A stretch of 34,542 bases of DNA from a bacterium (GTDB taxonomy: Bacteria > Patescibacteriota > Saccharimonadia > Saccharimonadales > OMJO01): NCBI GenBank assembly GCA_900299395.1, contig OMJO01000022.1:1-34542 (forward strand), in the 5' to 3' direction. The first letter of the stretch is position 1; each line of letters opens with the position of its first letter. The notes beneath the pieces are model-generated. The model saw nothing but the letters and a program-made list of their open reading frames with translations. It had not been told where the DNA came from and did no database searches. Of the stretch, positions 11,581 through 19,537 are shown in pieces. Both the position numbers and the translations under genes were made by a program.

Positions 11581-11648
11581 AAGATTTCCTCTTGTTAGCA
11601 TTAAATCATCGACCGTAGGCAATGCCTTGATTTAATAGTTACCGTATT

Positions 11649-11677
11649 AAAAAAGCCTTTAGCGCTGAGCCAAAGAC
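11649..11677 (-). terminator. Attenuator-type intrinsic terminator in the rplJ leader
   Basis: Minus strand GTCTTTGGC-tcagc-GCTAAAGGC-TTTTTT. Arms at 11669-11677 and 11655-11663, T6 at 11649-11654, lying upstream of the rplJ start. Confidence 0.75.
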
Positions 11678-11751
11678 TTACACGATGTCAGAAAACATAT
11701 TGTTTCTACCTCGGCGACATAATTAAGGTTTTCGCCCGTCGCTGTCTTTGG
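11670..11751 (-). ncRNA. Ribosomal protein L10 leader (cis-regulatory RNA)
   Basis: Minus strand CCAAAGAC...AGCGACGGGCGAAAACCTTAATTATGTCGCCGAGGTAG...GTCTTTGG: closing stem plus the conserved L10-binding-like core, upstream of rplJ. Confidence 0.85.
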
Positions 11752-11763
11752 TAACTAGGCTAG

Positions 11764-11792
11764 ATTATACAAAAAAACACTTCTCAACTCAA
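11764..11792 (-). promoter_or_regulatory. Sigma70-type promoter for rplJ-rplL
   Basis: -35 TTGAGT (11787-11792), 17-bp spacer, -10 TATAAT (11764-11769), immediately upstream of the L10 leader. Confidence 0.75.
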
Positions 11793-11799
11793 GTGCAAT

Positions 11800-11829
11800 T
11801 TGACAACATTGTTTATTCGGGCGTAAAAT
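11800..11829 (+). promoter_or_regulatory. Sigma70-type promoter for the 12002-14671 operon
   Basis: -35 TTGACA (11800-11805), 18-bp spacer, -10 TAAAAT (11824-11829); predicted TSS about 11835-11839. Confidence 0.7.
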
Positions 11830-11848: not shown

Positions 11849-11985
11849 TAATCTGTCGTAGCTCTTATAAGCACACTGTGGCCTTTTTTGGTCTCGTGCT
11901 CATTATGGGCTAATGGCAGATTGACTTCGGCATAACAATAATCACCCACCGAGCAATCTGCCAAAGAGAGGAGCTCGGTTTTTTT
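11849..11985 (+). promoter_or_regulatory. Putative transcription attenuator/riboswitch-like leader (unclassified)
   Basis: P1 11849-11864 with 11907-11923; P2 AGCAC/GTGCT; P3 GGCC/GGTC with U6 loop. Antiterminator 11914-11930 with 11949-11963. Terminator ACCGAGC (11948-11954)/GCTCGGT (11973-11979) plus T7 (11979-11985). Confidence 0.7.
11948..11985 (+). terminator. Intrinsic terminator 17 nt upstream of the 12002 start codon
   Basis: ACCGAGC-(18 nt)-GCTCGGT followed by TTTTTTT. Confidence 0.75.
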
Positions 11986-12001: not shown

Positions 12002-13201
12002 ATGGCAACACACGAAGCACAACCCAGTCCAGCGGAACAACCATTCAATATTACGGTTGAAAACACGCTTTCATTGCAGGATCTAGCTAGTTTAGATGCC
12101 CAAGGCTACTCTGTTGTGCGTTCATCGCACGTCGGCAATCAGTATCCTTCCAATCTTGCCTGGATTCAAGAAGGTGGGCGTGCCGTGTGGTATGACCGTA
12201 CGCTTGCCTCTCGAGACAATAACTACTATCCCCATTTGCACGTAGCTAGTGGTGAGTCACATTCGTTGTACGGCACACATGATCAGTTGACCACGCACGC
12301 CGTAGTGGAAACGCCACCACCAGGCTACGAGGATTTAGCTGGTGAGTCTGCAACAAGTTTCCATTTGCAAGGATTGGCGCGTGCCTATCCGCTGGCAAAC
12401 GTTTTGCCATATGAGGGGTATTTATTAAAAAATCAGCCCGAAGCAGCTGAGATACTCGATATCTTGCATCGCGGTGGCTTTCGTCACTACTTTAACCGTT
12501 TTGTGCATAGCGACGGGCATGTCGAGGATGTTTCGGCTATACCTGATGCGCCGAGACACTTAACAGTTGGCGAACACGCTGACAGCGACCGTGTTGGATT
12601 TATCCCGGCAAACGAGGTCAATGTAGCGCTATTTGGCGTGCTGGAAGCGTTGCGCTCAGGGCGAACTACACAATATCATTTATCGGGGCCAGATATGATC
12701 GGCTATGCAGCAAAGATGCAGCCGGAGCTAAGTGCAATGTACGCTACTGTTAGGCGGGCAGCCTCATTCCGCGCTGAATTACCCGACCATATTCATATGA
12801 AGGTTGTGCCGTCCGCCGCAGCTCGTTTTTTAGTAAGACATTCGGATGGTGAAGCCCTGGACGCATTGTTTGACACTCATGGCGACATGGCAGTCACAGA
12901 GGATATGATTTCGGCAGAAGCGGCAGATTACTTTGGCCCTGACGCCACAATAACTGATGAGGCGAAACGAAAGGCTTTTGTGGAACGCAAACATCAGGTG
13001 CTGGGTGTAACGCGTAAGGTATTTGATGAAGCACTGGTGCACGTAATGCCAGCCATGACTGGACCCGGTGAGCCTTCATTTCCTTCACAATACGACGCAG
13101 TTTATATGCGCCCTGAAAACCGACTATGGAAACTGTCAGACTTGCAACATTTGTACAAAACTATGACGAAACGCTATAAGGCACTACAAAAAGGAAAATA
13201 A
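12002..13201 (+). CDS. Hypothetical protein, first gene of D-amino-acid/dipeptidase operon
   Basis: 399-aa ORF downstream of promoter and attenuator; stop overlaps the next ATG by 1 nt (TAATG); no family recognised. Confidence 0.85.
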   Translation: MATHEAQPSPAEQPFNITVENTLSLQDLASLDAQGYSVVRSSHVGNQYPSNLAWIQEGGRAVWYDRTLASRDNNYYPHLHVASGESHSLYGTHDQLTTHAVVETPPPGYEDLAGESATSFHLQGLARAYPLANVLPYEGYLLKNQPEAAEILDILHRGGFRHYFNRFVHSDGHVEDVSAIPDAPRHLTVGEHADSDRVGFIPANEVNVALFGVLEALRSGRTTQYHLSGPDMIGYAAKMQPELSAMYATVRRAASFRAELPDHIHMKVVPSAAARFLVRHSDGEALDALFDTHGDMAVTEDMISAEAADYFGPDATITDEAKRKAFVERKHQVLGVTRKVFDEALVHVMPAMTGPGEPSFPSQYDAVYMRPENRLWKLSDLQHLYKTMTKRYKALQKGK

Positions 13202-13977
13202 TGTTCACAAAAGCCTACATTACGTCTCAAAGTCAGCTTTTGGCCGTGCCAGCTTCAGAACGCTGGAAGTATTACCTTGACAGGAAGTTATTACAGACTA
13301 TCGTCCACTTTTCTGACGATGATGACCCAATGGTTACGCGACGCGATATCGAGAAAGCGGGTATAGCCTGTGAGCCGTTTTGGGAAGATACAGCTGGATA
13401 TCTTGATAATGAAGGAAAAGCATTTCAACGATATCGCCAGATGCATCCTGAATTTGACATTTGTATTCGAAAAATAGCTCTTGAGCGGCTGTTGCAAGCG
13501 CAAAAGATACTGGGGGCACAAGCGCAGATTGTAATCAAGGCAGCATATCGACCGCTAGCTGTTCAGCGTGATGTATTTAACGCGGAGCTGACCGTCGTCA
13601 GGAGTGCGCGCCCAGAGTGGTCAGAAAAACAAAGCCGTGCGTATTTACTAGAATATGTGACTGACCCAGAAGTTTACCTGCCCCCGCATGCTAGTGGTGG
13701 AACGGTGGATATTGTGCTGAAACACCCCAGGAGCAATGAGCTGCTTGATATGGGTGTGCCCGTGAATAGTGTCGATGATCGCTCTTGGACTGCAAATATG
13801 GATGGCCTGACTTCCGAACAAAAGAACAACCGAAAATTTATAACCAAGACTATGTTGCAGGCTGGCTTTGCCAATTTAGCATCTGAGTGGTGGCACTATA
13901 GTTTTGGCGATCAACGCTGGGCAGTGTTTTACAGCAAAGCAGAAGCACTTTATAGTACACCGGAAGGATTGAAATAA
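13201..13977 (+). CDS. D-alanyl-D-alanine dipeptidase (VanX/DdpX, M15D family)
   Basis: AAYRPLAVQ (catalytic Arg region), PHASGGTVDIVL (zinc ligands H and D), EWWHYSF (E and H), VDDRSW; matches the VanX motif set. Confidence 0.9.
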   Translation: MFTKAYITSQSQLLAVPASERWKYYLDRKLLQTIVHFSDDDDPMVTRRDIEKAGIACEPFWEDTAGYLDNEGKAFQRYRQMHPEFDICIRKIALERLLQAQKILGAQAQIVIKAAYRPLAVQRDVFNAELTVVRSARPEWSEKQSRAYLLEYVTDPEVYLPPHASGGTVDIVLKHPRSNELLDMGVPVNSVDDRSWTANMDGLTSEQKNNRKFITKTMLQAGFANLASEWWHYSFGDQRWAVFYSKAEALYSTPEGLK

Positions 13978-13981
13978 CAGT

Positions 13982-14671
13982 ATGAAACAGATAATCGGCA
14001 TAGTAGGTGGTACTGGTCCATTGGCTAGTACTCATTTGTGTTCGCTTCTTACTGAGCTACATCTTGTGAAGAGTGATCAGGATCATGTTCCGTTTGTGCA
14101 CATTAGCCATCCGCAAATACCTGATAGAAGTGCTTTTTTGCGCGGTGAAGGCGAAAATCCGACTGCAGCTATAGTCTCAGTCATTGAACGCTTACAACAG
14201 GCTGGTGCTACCATGGCCTGTGTTGCCTGTAATACCGCGCATGCTCCTCAGATTTATGATGAGATTTCAAGAAAAAGCCCGCTGCCACTTGTTAATCTTG
14301 TTGCTACGACAGCAGATTTTGTCATATCGTCTGTTCCTAATGCAAAAACCGTCGGTATTTTAGGTACGACTGGTACGGTGTCAGCGAATGTGTATGCACT
14401 CTACTTTGAGCGGCATCAAGTTGCGGTTAAATACCTACAACCAGACCACCAGCAACAGGTAATGCGTACCATCTATGAGATAAAGGCGTCTGGGCCTACT
14501 GGCGAGCACTCTAAGCTTATTACGGCACTGTCGGGGACACTCCTGCATTCCGGTTGTGATGCAGTTGTCCTAGGATGTACAGAGCTTAGCCTACTAGACT
14601 ACCCAACATCAAAAGTTATGTTTGATCCCGTGCGCATTCTGGCTGAACATTTGCTAGAGCGGGCAGCCTAG
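13982..14671 (+). CDS. Aspartate/glutamate racemase family protein
   Basis: IGIVGGTGPLASTHL; catalytic Cys motifs VACNTAHAP and VVLGCTELSLL. Confidence 0.92.
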   Translation: MKQIIGIVGGTGPLASTHLCSLLTELHLVKSDQDHVPFVHISHPQIPDRSAFLRGEGENPTAAIVSVIERLQQAGATMACVACNTAHAPQIYDEISRKSPLPLVNLVATTADFVISSVPNAKTVGILGTTGTVSANVYALYFERHQVAVKYLQPDHQQQVMRTIYEIKASGPTGEHSKLITALSGTLLHSGCDAVVLGCTELSLLDYPTSKVMFDPVRILAEHLLERAA

Positions 14672-14675
14672 TTTC

Positions 14676-17030
14676 TCATTCAGCTTGATCGAGCTTTTCT
14701 AGTTTGTACTGCGTGGCTCGTTCGGCTGCTAGCCGGGTTAATTCAGGATTTTCATCTTGGTTGACGAATTTCATTGCTTCAGCAAGCATGGGGTGCCGTG
14801 CGGTAAGTTGTTCGTGCATCTGTTGTACTAGTTTACGATAGCCAGGATGGCCTTGAGGGGCTGTCCGTAGTTCATGAAAATGGAAAGCTTCACGGGCGTT
14901 ATACGTAACTGTCCAACGCATCTTATGGCCAAGCAAGGTCGCATAATGGGCTTCGTAGGTATAACCGGCGGCTTGTAGGTGGCTATAAAGGGCTGCTGAT
15001 AGGTCAAAGCATTGCTCAAATTGTTCACTTAGTCCCGCTTCTTCAATAAGTTCTGGCACATCAAAACCATAACGGGGACTCAGTGCTTGCCATTCCAGAT
15101 CGTCTACCATGCGATGCCGCTGTAAATCGCGGAAAATGCCATAATCGCACACGAGGTCCCACGTGTAGTGGGCCTGCTCAAGGGCACGACCAGGACGATG
15201 TCGTCGATTAAGGCGTTCACCCATATAAGTCGTAAAGACATCCATTTTTTTGTCTATAGACCACGTGTCGACCTCGGCTTGTATCTCGCGCAATGACATG
15301 GTGCTGTGCTCATAGAGCATGTGAGGTACTAGATCCAACTCGTTGGTTGGGCTAACTTTTAAAAGTTGCACGGACGCAGGATAGCTGCCGTACGAACCCT
15401 TGAGATATTTATCTGCCAAGTCGCGAACAGCGTGCCTTGTATTAGCAAAATAAGCTGTCATGGCACCACCGCGTTCTGGTTTGTCCGCCCGCTCGAGGAA
15501 CGTAGGGATAACTTTTCTGGCTTCAGCAAGGATTTCATCACCTGTTTTTCTCGCCTCGTGACTATCACTTGCCCGCAGTCTCATAATAAGGTTTTCGAGC
15601 GCTTGTCCACTAGCAAAGATGCCGACAGTTGATTTTGTTGACACTGGTAATACAGGCCGTACAGCATCACACGCCTGAGCTCGAATAGCTGCACGCCAAG
15701 CGCCATCTTGTTCTTCCTTTTTGACTGACGAGTTTCTGGCAAGATAGTCAGCGAGCTCATGCACCATGGAGGAATAGAGGTCAAAGATGTTGTCCATGTG
15801 CTGACGATACAGTCGCTTTGTGGCAACGTTTAACGTTTCTGGCGTATAGTATCTGTAATTACCATCGTTGTCTTTCTGGTCAAAATAGATATACCGGGTT
15901 GATTGTTCCAGATAGGATGCCAAACGACCCCACTCCAACTGTTTCGTCAGGAGGTTGCTGGCTCCTTCTACTACAATATGCTGCCCCGCAAGTTGTTGTA
16001 CTGAATCATCACCGTACGCCGTGATAACACGCTTTAACAAACCGGTGTCCTTGCCTTCGTGGACCGCAAATTCGTCCAATATGGTTATGCGCATATCATC
16101 ACCGCGTCTACTCAAACGAGCCATAGCGGCGGCAACGGTCATGGCGCTGAGCTTGTCAGTGAATCCGTAAACGTTACCTTCTGTATTGGTGACCGCTTCT
16201 TTAAGGAATTGTGCGCCTTCATTAGTTATTTGATATCGTCCCTGCTTGTCTTTGTATACGTAGGGGTTTGGTGTAACGGAAGTAGTTTTCTGCAAAATAG
16301 CCGCGTTTTCTGTACTTTTTCTCTCTGGTTTGGAAGGTAAAAGTGGCAGTACGGTACGCCACAGTATTTCGTGTATTGTATCAATATCAAGTAGTTGGCC
16401 GTCGCGCACACAGTCAAGGCGGCTGAAATCTTTCGGGAATAACTGACAAAGGTCATCGTATACTTCTACAGACTTTTGTAGATGATTGAGGTCTGCCTCG
16501 TGCAAGTCACGTTGTTTTTTGGTGTACGTACGTTCGGCTTTCTGATCCACCAAATTCTGTGCAATCTCGGCCGGTACGCGAAGCACAAACGATTTATCAG
16601 GACGAGGGATACGAAGCATTTCAAATTCCAGATTATCTAGCCAGATAAAGTATCCGCGTCTTTGTTCCGGACTAGCAAATTTGGTACCTTGATGCGCCAT
16701 GTTTGAGCCGGTAAATCTATTTGCTAGGACGATCTTGCCTTCGCTCAAAGCCTGCCTAATCTGGCTGGCGGCCTGGAAGCGATCGAGAGCGTAAAACAAT
16801 GATCCAGTGTACGGTCCTACTTGATCGGCCGACCCATAGTTGCCATTTAGGTACTCCTGTACAAAGTAACTTGAGGGCTGGTCGTACTGCGGAAAATCAA
16901 ACGTTGCGACGCTATAGCCTTCACGTTCAAGTCTTTCAGCAAGCTTTTTGAACTGCGTACCTTTCCCCGACCCATCTGTTCCTTCCAGAACTAGAAAAGC
17001 ACCTGTTTGGGAGAGGCTTTCATTGTTCAT
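14676..17030 (-). CDS. Fusion protein: thymidylate kinase - ThyX-like - ThyX-like
   Basis: N-term FLVLEGTDGSGKGTQFKKLAERL (Tmk). Then two ThyX-like regions: LEWGRLASYLEQSTRYIYF...RPVLPVSTKSTVGIFASGQALENLIMRLRASDSHEARK, and FRDLQRHRMVDDLEWQALSPRYG...GHKMRWTVTYNAREAFHFHELRTAPQGHPGYRK. Start MNNESLSQ at 17030 (ATGA overlap with the upstream stop). Confidence 0.85.
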   Translation of the reverse strand: MNNESLSQTGAFLVLEGTDGSGKGTQFKKLAERLEREGYSVATFDFPQYDQPSSYFVQEYLNGNYGSADQVGPYTGSLFYALDRFQAASQIRQALSEGKIVLANRFTGSNMAHQGTKFASPEQRRGYFIWLDNLEFEMLRIPRPDKSFVLRVPAEIAQNLVDQKAERTYTKKQRDLHEADLNHLQKSVEVYDDLCQLFPKDFSRLDCVRDGQLLDIDTIHEILWRTVLPLLPSKPERKSTENAAILQKTTSVTPNPYVYKDKQGRYQITNEGAQFLKEAVTNTEGNVYGFTDKLSAMTVAAAMARLSRRGDDMRITILDEFAVHEGKDTGLLKRVITAYGDDSVQQLAGQHIVVEGASNLLTKQLEWGRLASYLEQSTRYIYFDQKDNDGNYRYYTPETLNVATKRLYRQHMDNIFDLYSSMVHELADYLARNSSVKKEEQDGAWRAAIRAQACDAVRPVLPVSTKSTVGIFASGQALENLIMRLRASDSHEARKTGDEILAEARKVIPTFLERADKPERGGAMTAYFANTRHAVRDLADKYLKGSYGSYPASVQLLKVSPTNELDLVPHMLYEHSTMSLREIQAEVDTWSIDKKMDVFTTYMGERLNRRHRPGRALEQAHYTWDLVCDYGIFRDLQRHRMVDDLEWQALSPRYGFDVPELIEEAGLSEQFEQCFDLSAALYSHLQAAGYTYEAHYATLLGHKMRWTVTYNAREAFHFHELRTAPQGHPGYRKLVQQMHEQLTARHPMLAEAMKFVNQDENPELTRLAAERATQYKLEKLDQAE

Positions 17031-17731
17031 TGCACTTTTAAACCTTTTATCTTCTCCGGCATTCGACGAGCGTCTTTGTACGCCCGTGGTAACATTTGCT
17101 CTGGCTTCCACGCTGCAATAATACTGTCGAGGCTGTCACTTGTGGCAGTTTGATACTTGCCGCTCAACTTCTTGTACTCAAGGTCAACTGGGCCCGTTTC
17201 ATAGAAGACCATTTGAGCTACCCGCTCACCCACCGGTAACACAACGCTCTCGTGTTGATTCATGTTATAGATTTCCATTGTCCATCGGTTGATATACCCG
17301 GGGTCACCCCACCCCGCGTCAAGACACACGGCAACACCATTACGGCCCCATGTGCTCCGGGCCTGCATAGTGCTGGTGCCAGGGGCCTTGATACCAATAA
17401 ATTCATGAGTATGCGCCAAAATGCGCTCTCCAGGGCGTAAAACAATGATAGGATGGTCAGCTGGAATATTAGTAAATAAGGTGCGGCCGTGTTTTTTGGC
17501 CCAGTCTTTATGCTTCTCTGCTTTTTGCGGCTCGCCAAAGTACTGTTTTACCGCCTTTTCTTCCATGGGGTTATAGAAGCCACCTTCACTTGGCCGCTCA
17601 GTTCGGTAGTACCAGTTGCCTAATGTTACATCAACACTACTACCAGCTATCTGTTTTTCATTATAAGGGTGAAAAACAATATGGCCCTTCTTGATCGCTT
17701 CTTTAATCTGAATATTACTGTATACGCCCAT
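17027..17731 (-). CDS. dcd: dCTP deaminase / dUTPase family protein
   Basis: IAGSSVDVTLGNWYY; STMQARSTWGRNGVAVCLDAGWGDPGYINRWTMEIYN; VGERVAQMVFYETG. Confidence 0.88.
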   Translation of the reverse strand: MGVYSNIQIKEAIKKGHIVFHPYNEKQIAGSSVDVTLGNWYYRTERPSEGGFYNPMEEKAVKQYFGEPQKAEKHKDWAKKHGRTLFTNIPADHPIIVLRPGERILAHTHEFIGIKAPGTSTMQARSTWGRNGVAVCLDAGWGDPGYINRWTMEIYNMNQHESVVLPVGERVAQMVFYETGPVDLEYKKLSGKYQTATSDSLDSIIAAWKPEQMLPRAYKDARRMPEKIKGLKVQ

Positions 17732-17820: not shown

Positions 17821-18564
17821 CTACGACTTGGCGATGTATGTTGCCGGCAGTAAACCCGTCTTGATGTCTGCCAGTATTTTGTGGGAGATTCCCCGTAGAT
17901 CGTCCAAACTACCGTTGTTTATCACAATAGTATCCGCGGTAATAGTGCCTCGATCTCTTTCGGTAGGGTCTTGTATATCGACCTCTTTGGACGCTGGGCG
18001 GATGATAGCCATAATCTTGCCATGTGCCTTACGAACTAGTGTGGCATCGGAAGGAAACCGGACACCACTTATAATCCCTAGTTCGACACCCGCACCAACG
18101 CAACGGCGAATAAGCTCGTCATACCATATACCTGGCCCCACTTTTAAAACTAGATAGCCTCCTAGCCACTGCAGAAAGGGTCGGTAAAATTTTTTATTCT
18201 CAGATGTGATTATTACTTGAGTGGCTTGAGGTTGCTCTTTGAGGGCGTCAAGGTATTCAAAAAGTTTTTCGTAGGCTACAGGGTCTCTTTCGATATCATT
18301 TTTTTGGACTCGTATAGAGCCAAACGTTATTTCTTTATGCAGTAGTTCCTGGGCTATTTCGGGCAAGTAGTGTAACCACTTATTGATTCCCGCTATATCG
18401 TCAGCTCGGGGTATTGACTGCAGTTTTTGATGTAGCGCATCAGCAACTTCTGCAACGAGAAATCCAGTCTCTAAATGTACTGAAGAGACATCAGAATCAA
18501 TTAGCATCGTTGCCAAGGTTGATTTACCGTGCCCAATGGGACCGGTAATACCGAGTAGGACCAT
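17821..18564 (-). CDS. P-loop deoxynucleoside monophosphate kinase-like protein
   Basis: Walker A GITGPIGHGKSTLA; ISGVRFPSDATLVRKAHGKIMAIIRP resembles T4 gp1-type dNMP kinases. Confidence 0.6.
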   Translation of the reverse strand: MVLLGITGPIGHGKSTLATMLIDSDVSSVHLETGFLVAEVADALHQKLQSIPRADDIAGINKWLHYLPEIAQELLHKEITFGSIRVQKNDIERDPVAYEKLFEYLDALKEQPQATQVIITSENKKFYRPFLQWLGGYLVLKVGPGIWYDELIRRCVGAGVELGIISGVRFPSDATLVRKAHGKIMAIIRPASKEVDIQDPTERDRGTITADTIVINNGSLDDLRGISHKILADIKTGLLPATYIAKS

Positions 18565-18573
18565 GTCTCTAGT

Positions 18574-19485
18574 TTACACGTCGCTCAGCGCAACGGGAAT
18601 GGATGGCCCCATAGTCGTAGTCACAAATACTGACTGAACGTATGCGCCTTTTACGCTAGCTGGTTTAGCAGCTTTAATGCTTTCAAGAATGGCCTTTGCA
18701 TTGTCTTGCAGTTTGTCCTTGCCAAAACTAACTTTACCAATATTGACGTGAACAATACCGGTGCTATCGACACGGTACTCTACCCGACCGGCATTAGCTT
18801 CGGTGACTGCCTTGGCTACATTAGGTGTAACAGTGCCGCTCTTAGGGTTAGGCATAAGACCCTTTGGCCCCAATACACGAGCGTATTTACCCAGTTTTGG
18901 CATCATTGCTGGTGTAGCGATTAAAATATCGAAGTTTATCTCGCCTTTTTCTAACTGTTGCAGAAATTCTTCACCTGCAGCGATGTCAGCACCTGCTTGC
19001 TTTGCTTTAGCAACGTCGTCGACGTCAGCAAATACTGCTACGCGCACTTTTTTGCCAGTTCCAGCCGGCAAGGAGACGGTTTGTCGAATGTTTTGATCGG
19101 CTTGTCGTGGATCAACACCAAGGCGTACGTGCATTTCAACACTTGCATCGAATTTTACAGTACTTGTCTTTGTGGCTAACTTTAAGGCTTCTGCGATGCT
19201 GTATGTGGTACTACGGTCAACTAGCTTTGCTGACTTCTGGTAGTTTTTACCTCGACGCTCAAGACGTGATCGAGCTGCTTTTGCGGTGACCTTTACTTTT
19301 TCATCAGTCGACGTATCGGTTTCGGCCTTACGTTCTTCTTTGGCTTGTTTTTCGTCTGCTTCCTTGAGGGCCTTTTGGCTACGCTTGCCTGCCTTAGCAG
19401 GTGCGACCTTTTCTGCGGCTGTAGTCTCGACAACTTCCGCTTCGATGGGCTCAGGTGCTTTAGTGGTTTTTTTGGCTTCTGCCAT
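18574..19485 (-). CDS. rplA: 50S ribosomal protein L1 with Lys/Ala/Glu-rich N-terminal extension
   Basis: KFDASVEMHVRLGVDPRQADQNIRQTVSLPAGTGK...; GPKGLMPNPKSGTVT; start MAEAKKTTKAPEP at 19485. Confidence 0.96.
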   Translation of the reverse strand: MAEAKKTTKAPEPIEAEVVETTAAEKVAPAKAGKRSQKALKEADEKQAKEERKAETDTSTDEKVKVTAKAARSRLERRGKNYQKSAKLVDRSTTYSIAEALKLATKTSTVKFDASVEMHVRLGVDPRQADQNIRQTVSLPAGTGKKVRVAVFADVDDVAKAKQAGADIAAGEEFLQQLEKGEINFDILIATPAMMPKLGKYARVLGPKGLMPNPKSGTVTPNVAKAVTEANAGRVEYRVDSTGIVHVNIGKVSFGKDKLQDNAKAILESIKAAKPASVKGAYVQSVFVTTTMGPSIPVALSDV

Positions 19486-19537
19486 ACTTCCTCCTTCGTG
19501 GTACAAACGGCTGGTTGCCTCCCACAATAGTTATTGT

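Follow-up and report, generated by a model that had tools for sequence, protein, structure and literature searches.

A leader-peptide attenuator probably controls a dipeptidase and racemase operon, possibly for amino-acid scavenging, in a saccharibacterium

Main finding

A three-gene operon of a saccharibacterium, encoding a protein of a family here called UNK (gene 1), an M15-family dipeptidase (gene 2) and an Asp/Glu-type racemase (gene 3), very probably sits behind a leader-peptide transcription attenuator. We lean towards the reading that this attenuator senses low levels of aromatic amino acids and drives an operon for the scavenging of peptides and D-amino acids. Patescibacteria are thought to depend on their hosts for amino acids, and how they sense shortage is little understood. 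If true, a conserved switch of this kind, worked by ribosome stalling ahead of dipeptidase operons, would make amino-acid sensing in epibionts directly accessible to tests. Moreover, the UNK family, which is without described relatives and changes its partners while the switch is kept, is a good target for the search for new peptide chemistry.

The operon and its leader

The window, i.e. the whole analysed stretch of 34,542 nucleotides (contig OMJO01000022.1), carries three plus strand open reading frames that were confirmed as initially annotated, the second overlapping the first by 1 nt and the third following after a gap of 4 nt (Table 1). Judged from their sequence and arrangement, the three genes form one operon. 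The grouping goes beyond chance, since the exact trio recurs in Saccharibacteria CPR2 (L005), and genes 1 and 2 of QS_5_54_17 (L006) have rplJ and thyX on either side, like those of the window. The promoter is strong, with 11 of 12 positions matching the consensus, and the ATG of the leader lies 9 nt past the end of the -10 box. The earlier proposal of a regulated promoter is supported; it had left the kind of regulation open, and this looks like a leader-peptide attenuator.

Table 1. Features of the operon and of its leader (positions in the window).
Feature	Position	Strand	Remarks
Sigma-70-type promoter	11800..11829	+	TTGACA 11800-11805, 18-nt spacer, TAAAAT 11824-11829
Leader peptide ORF MSNVICRSSYKHTVAFFGLVLIMG*, 24 codons	11839..11913	+	from sequence; starts about where transcription should start
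Region 1 (AATCTGTC)	11850..11857	+	pairs with region 2 in the ribosome-free fold
Region 2 (GGCAGATTG)	11915..11923	+	directly past the leader stop codon; partner for region 1 or 3
Region 3 (CAATCTGCC)	11954..11962	+	9 bp with region 2 (antiterminator); overlaps 5' arm and loop of the terminator
Intrinsic terminator	11948..11985	+	ACCGAGC 11948-11954 / GCTCGGT 11973-11979, U tract 11979-11985
UNK (gene 1), 399 aa	12002..13201	+	no Pfam or NCBIfam model; family of Patescibacteria
M15-family (VanX-like) dipeptidase (gene 2), 258 aa	13201..13977	+	metal-ligand motifs present
Asp/Glu-type racemase (gene 3), 229 aa	13982..14671	+	both catalytic Cys motifs

The leader of the window folds with a minimum free energy of -50.8 kcal/mol (z = -4.96 against shuffles). 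When a ribosome was simulated at each codon, the terminator, which formed with a probability of 0.97 in the free RNA, was low for stalls at codons 1-22, giving read-through, and high again for a ribosome at the end of the leader or on its stop codon. Judged from the position of the -10 box, transcription would begin on the leader ATG or right beside it. A ribosome reaching the stop codon would then cover region 2, so that the terminator forms and transcription ends, while a ribosome stalled within the leader would cover region 1 and leave region 2 to pair with region 3, so that the terminator does not form and the operon is transcribed. An Rfam scan of the operon leader yielded no T-box or riboswitch match, the sole match being an L10 leader on the other strand.

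Leader-peptide attenuators have been described in actinobacterial amino-acid operons (PMC1262725). Like the trpL, pheL and hisL attenuators, the UNK leaders combine a short open reading frame with mutually exclusive hairpins and an intrinsic terminator, and are enriched in candidate control codons ahead of region 2. They differ in that the switch governs peptidase, racemase and UNK genes instead of biosynthesis, that little or no transcript precedes the leader frame and that aromatic codons are mixed instead of arranged in runs of one.

The switch in related loci

The layout of the UNK leaders, in which a short open reading frame begins 2-14 nt past the -10 box and precedes an intrinsic terminator able to base-pair, through its 5' arm, with the last part of the frame, was found by a mechanical detector in front of 17 of 20 UNK genes vs. 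7 of 97 neighbouring genes of the same loci; counting L016, overlooked by the name filter, gives 18 of 21. None of 34 TyrRS, TrpRS, ArgRS and stand-alone M15 loci gave a detection, and a candidate trpS attenuator in L071 (MQAANYWFTVIKTWRLAPCLV) was rejected because the detector was negative. Leaders were chosen by eye from the positions of promoter and terminator, a few of them with alternative starts. In 11 of the 12 leaders tested some stall abolished the terminator and late ribosomes restored it. Dinucleotide shuffles of these leaders switched in 0-4%, except for the window, which is the weakest switching case: here 16 of 80 shuffles also switched and the terminator is weaker, which makes switching by chance only moderately unlikely for the window taken by itself. 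In L028 (1108-1497), a tandem pair of leader-frame and terminator units stands ahead of a single UNK gene.

The signal sensed by the leader

W, H and F codons abound in the leaders. Pooled, 23 leaders hold 140 F, W, Y or H among 647 residues, compared to 105 ± 8.6 after base-composition shuffling, where none of 1000 shuffles attains the observed count. Tryptophan occurs in 16 of the 23 where 8.9 would be expected (0 of 1000 shuffles) and histidine in 21 of 23 vs. 12.5 expected from shuffles. In leaders with narrow windows, W and Y codons fall within the predicted stall windows (permutation p = 0.0015, one of about 22 such tests made); with Phe, His or aliphatic residues as the single control codon, the position tests were not significant. 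On account of the aromatic enrichment and of the W/Y codons in the stall windows, we are inclined to read the leader as a sensor of aromatic amino-acid shortage, family-wide mainly of Trp and Tyr. Stalling would be triggered by too little charged tRNA for aromatic amino acids (Trp/Tyr, perhaps Phe/His in some leaders). The aromatic residues in the leader of the window are Y, H and FF, and its control codon cannot be read from the leader because the stall window spans most of the frame and there is no Trp codon. Separately, M15 dipeptidase genes were seen to adjoin trpS (TrpRS) in four loci (L024, L071, L073, L081), two of them between rpsI and trpS, an adjacency that may weakly fit aromatic sensing.

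Lineages appear to use different aromatic residues in their leaders, an uncommon trait among classical attenuators, and an arrest peptide induced by a ligand would give a similar picture. The leader could be an arrest peptide responding in the ribosome tunnel to a small molecule (a free amino acid, a dipeptide or an antibiotic), much as TnaC responds to tryptophan, with the operon making or destroying that molecule. Such a reading would fit the KHW common to the leaders of L008, L011 and L016, and the VxFFGLVLI-type stretches in those of the window, L006 and L009; peptidases plus a racemase could detoxify a peptide compound, and those S66 enzymes that are related to MccF are immunity enzymes. 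However, arrest peptides usually need a conserved leader sequence, and across the family the leader sequences are unconserved, with aromatic content and position being what is shared. We consider an arrest peptide rather improbable and keep to the sensing of aromatic shortage.

UNK family and its partners

UNK gave no match to Pfam, NCBIfam or PDB sequences, either alone or as a profile, and no description of the family with its switch turned up in the literature searched. Residues H43, G45, D65, D72, H121, G172 and Y235 are invariant across its long and short forms. Genomes with an UNK gene are rare, amounting to 6 of 393 within the order and 4 of 380 within the phylum. When GTDB contigs were scanned with the family motifs, UNK appeared only in Patescibacteria, namely in Saccharibacteria, Uhrbacteria, Campbellbacteria and Parcubacteria, and none was found in the viral contigs searched.

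UNK stands with M15 in the window, L005, L006, L024, L079 and L081, and the forms preceding M15 in the last three are shorter and divergent. A homologue of the M19 membrane dipeptidase, with the racemase present or absent, accompanies UNK in L007, L009, L010, L012-L015 and L017-L019, in L019 ahead of it. In L008, L011 and L023 a racemase and an S33 hydrolase come after UNK, and S33 alone does so in L004, where the second UNK copy of the window's own genome is located; in L028 and L029 the partner is an S66-like LD-carboxypeptidase (S66 assigned by eye). The racemase is present in nine UNK loci and missing from about half of the loci, and no transport gene was found linked to UNK. As the partners differ from locus to locus, UNK is the constant member, the peptidase being swapped among four unrelated families and the racemase being common and optional. 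Co-occurrence of the three genes in relatives, raised as a check in the initial annotation, holds for UNK together with a peptidase in almost every relative inspected, but only two genomes have the exact trio.

The type of partner tracks the UNK tree, in which the S33 group forms one clade (99/98) and the window clusters with L005 and L006 (94/95); the row of L028 was out of frame and its long branch was disregarded. The second UNK copy of the window's own genome (L004 / L094, contig C1) has its own leader, MSYNMHCWHKRYTRYTQAACARSAMIVQT. L016 (5872-8406) encodes two consecutive UNK genes, each with its own leader and no peptidase before the contig end, and in L019 (3330-3887) a 186-aa protein without Pfam match heads the operon with M19 and UNK, a leader-type open reading frame being located upstream.

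Two confident structural models of UNK (AF2, pLDDT 89.5 and 94.8) had ArgRS, TyrRS, GluRS and pantothenate synthetase as their leading PDB matches. A PHVGN-type motif lies between strand 37-43 and helix 49-56, where HIGH would sit. A fold resembling class-I aminoacyl-tRNA synthetases is only hinted at by these models. UNK might then be a ligase of the class-I aminoacyl-tRNA synthetase / pantothenate synthetase superfamily, making a D-amino-acid dipeptide or amide from a D-residue supplied by the racemase, with the peptidase for turnover or immunity. In favour of a ligase are the shared leading matches of both models, the HIGH-like position of PHVGN after a strand and the HIGGSDM of the L081 UNK, which resembles the TyrRS GGSDQ motif. 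However, the matches are weak (best Foldseek E 0.019, TM below 0.3), KMSKS is absent from the UNK alignments, and profile-profile comparisons with ArgRS, TrpRS and TyrRS were no better than with unrelated families; an hhalign alignment with TrpRS that lands on HIGH was not significant. Furthermore, the invariant H and D residues could equally form a metal site, and UNK differs from class-I synthetases, pantothenate synthetase and cyclodipeptide synthases, all of which share these weak likenesses to it, by a long C-terminal helical hairpin. A ligase activity seems to us unlikely. Somewhat less doubtful, and still tentative, is the broader proposal that UNK founds a new enzyme family of Patescibacteria, perhaps a remote class-I synthetase-like activator of amino acids, which with interchangeable peptidases and a family-specific attenuator would form an unrecognised module of peptide and D-amino-acid metabolism.

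Dipeptidase, racemase and the role of the operon

Pfam assigns gene 2 to Peptidase_M15 (9.6e-20), and its alignment with VanX (1r44) runs across HxxxxxxD and EWWHY, so that the metal-ligand motifs of M15D are present; the initial annotation had likewise noted all metal-ligand motifs. With its M15 domain, HxxxxxxD, EWWH and no evident signal peptide, it is similar to VanX and DdpX (MEROPS M15D). It differs from them in falling far below both equivalog cut-offs (49.7 bits vs. a cut-off of 320 for VanX, NF033115), in being about 60 residues longer and in lacking van or ddp neighbours.

Gene 3, matching Pfam Asp_Glu_race (5.7e-32), aligns with the Pyrococcus horikoshii aspartate racemase 1jfl over its full length and through both Cys motifs (CNTAH and GCTE), in line with the initial annotation. 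It scores above the cut-off of the asp_race subfamily TIGR00035 (133.5 vs. 93.1 bits), just under that of the cysteate racemase CuyB (188.3 vs. 190) and far from that of the MurI equivalog TIGR00067 (46.9 vs. 146.65 bits). Gene 3 thus scores as nearest to aspartate and cysteate racemases and not to MurI. The genome of the window has a separate MurI-like racemase (L093) and a D-Ala-D-Ala ligase-like (Ddl-like) gene.

The products would free amino acids, D-forms included, from short peptides for reuse: the M15 enzyme would cut dipeptides, the racemase would convert an acidic amino acid between its D and L forms, and UNK would be an enzyme working on the same peptides or amino acids. We give such a salvage role about even chances.

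The more specific role initially proposed, salvage of peptidoglycan fragments or self-protection by processing imported D-Ala-D-Ala and D-Glu of the host wall, is not supported as stated and appears improbable. The motifs of the M15 enzyme and the racemase are intact, and M19 and S66 enzymes, partners elsewhere in the family, can act on D-containing peptides. On the other hand, a plain peptidoglycan role is less likely because the genome has its own MurI-like and Ddl-like genes, the racemase does not score as MurI, the M15 enzyme is far under the VanX/DdpX cut-offs and the S33 partners are not wall enzymes; in addition, the leaders are rich in aromatic residues, which to our knowledge are absent from ordinary peptidoglycan. 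Glycopeptide (vancomycin-type) resistance through VanX-like removal of D-Ala-D-Ala, for which only the M15 family membership of gene 2 would speak, was held unlikely in the initial annotation and is highly improbable, given that there is no vanH, vanA or VanRS nearby, that the VanX score is far below the cut-off and that the regulation resembles a leader-peptide attenuator.

Genomic neighbourhood

The closest relatives are Saccharibacteria, which supports the saccharibacterial host suspected earlier. The operon had been placed between rplA and rplJ; it does adjoin rplJ, but rplA (18574-19527) lies three genes further on, beyond a tmk-thyX fusion (14676-17111) convergent to the operon, a dcd-like gene (17027-17731) and a small kinase-like gene (17821-18564). 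The L10 leader (RF00557) precedes rplJ at 11639-11769 on the minus strand, divergent from the operon promoter. In the tmk-thyX fusion, a single open reading frame of 811 aa, a thymidylate-kinase-like domain is fused to one of the Thy1 (ThyX) type; a similarly fused gene is found in L005, and two separate genes in L006.
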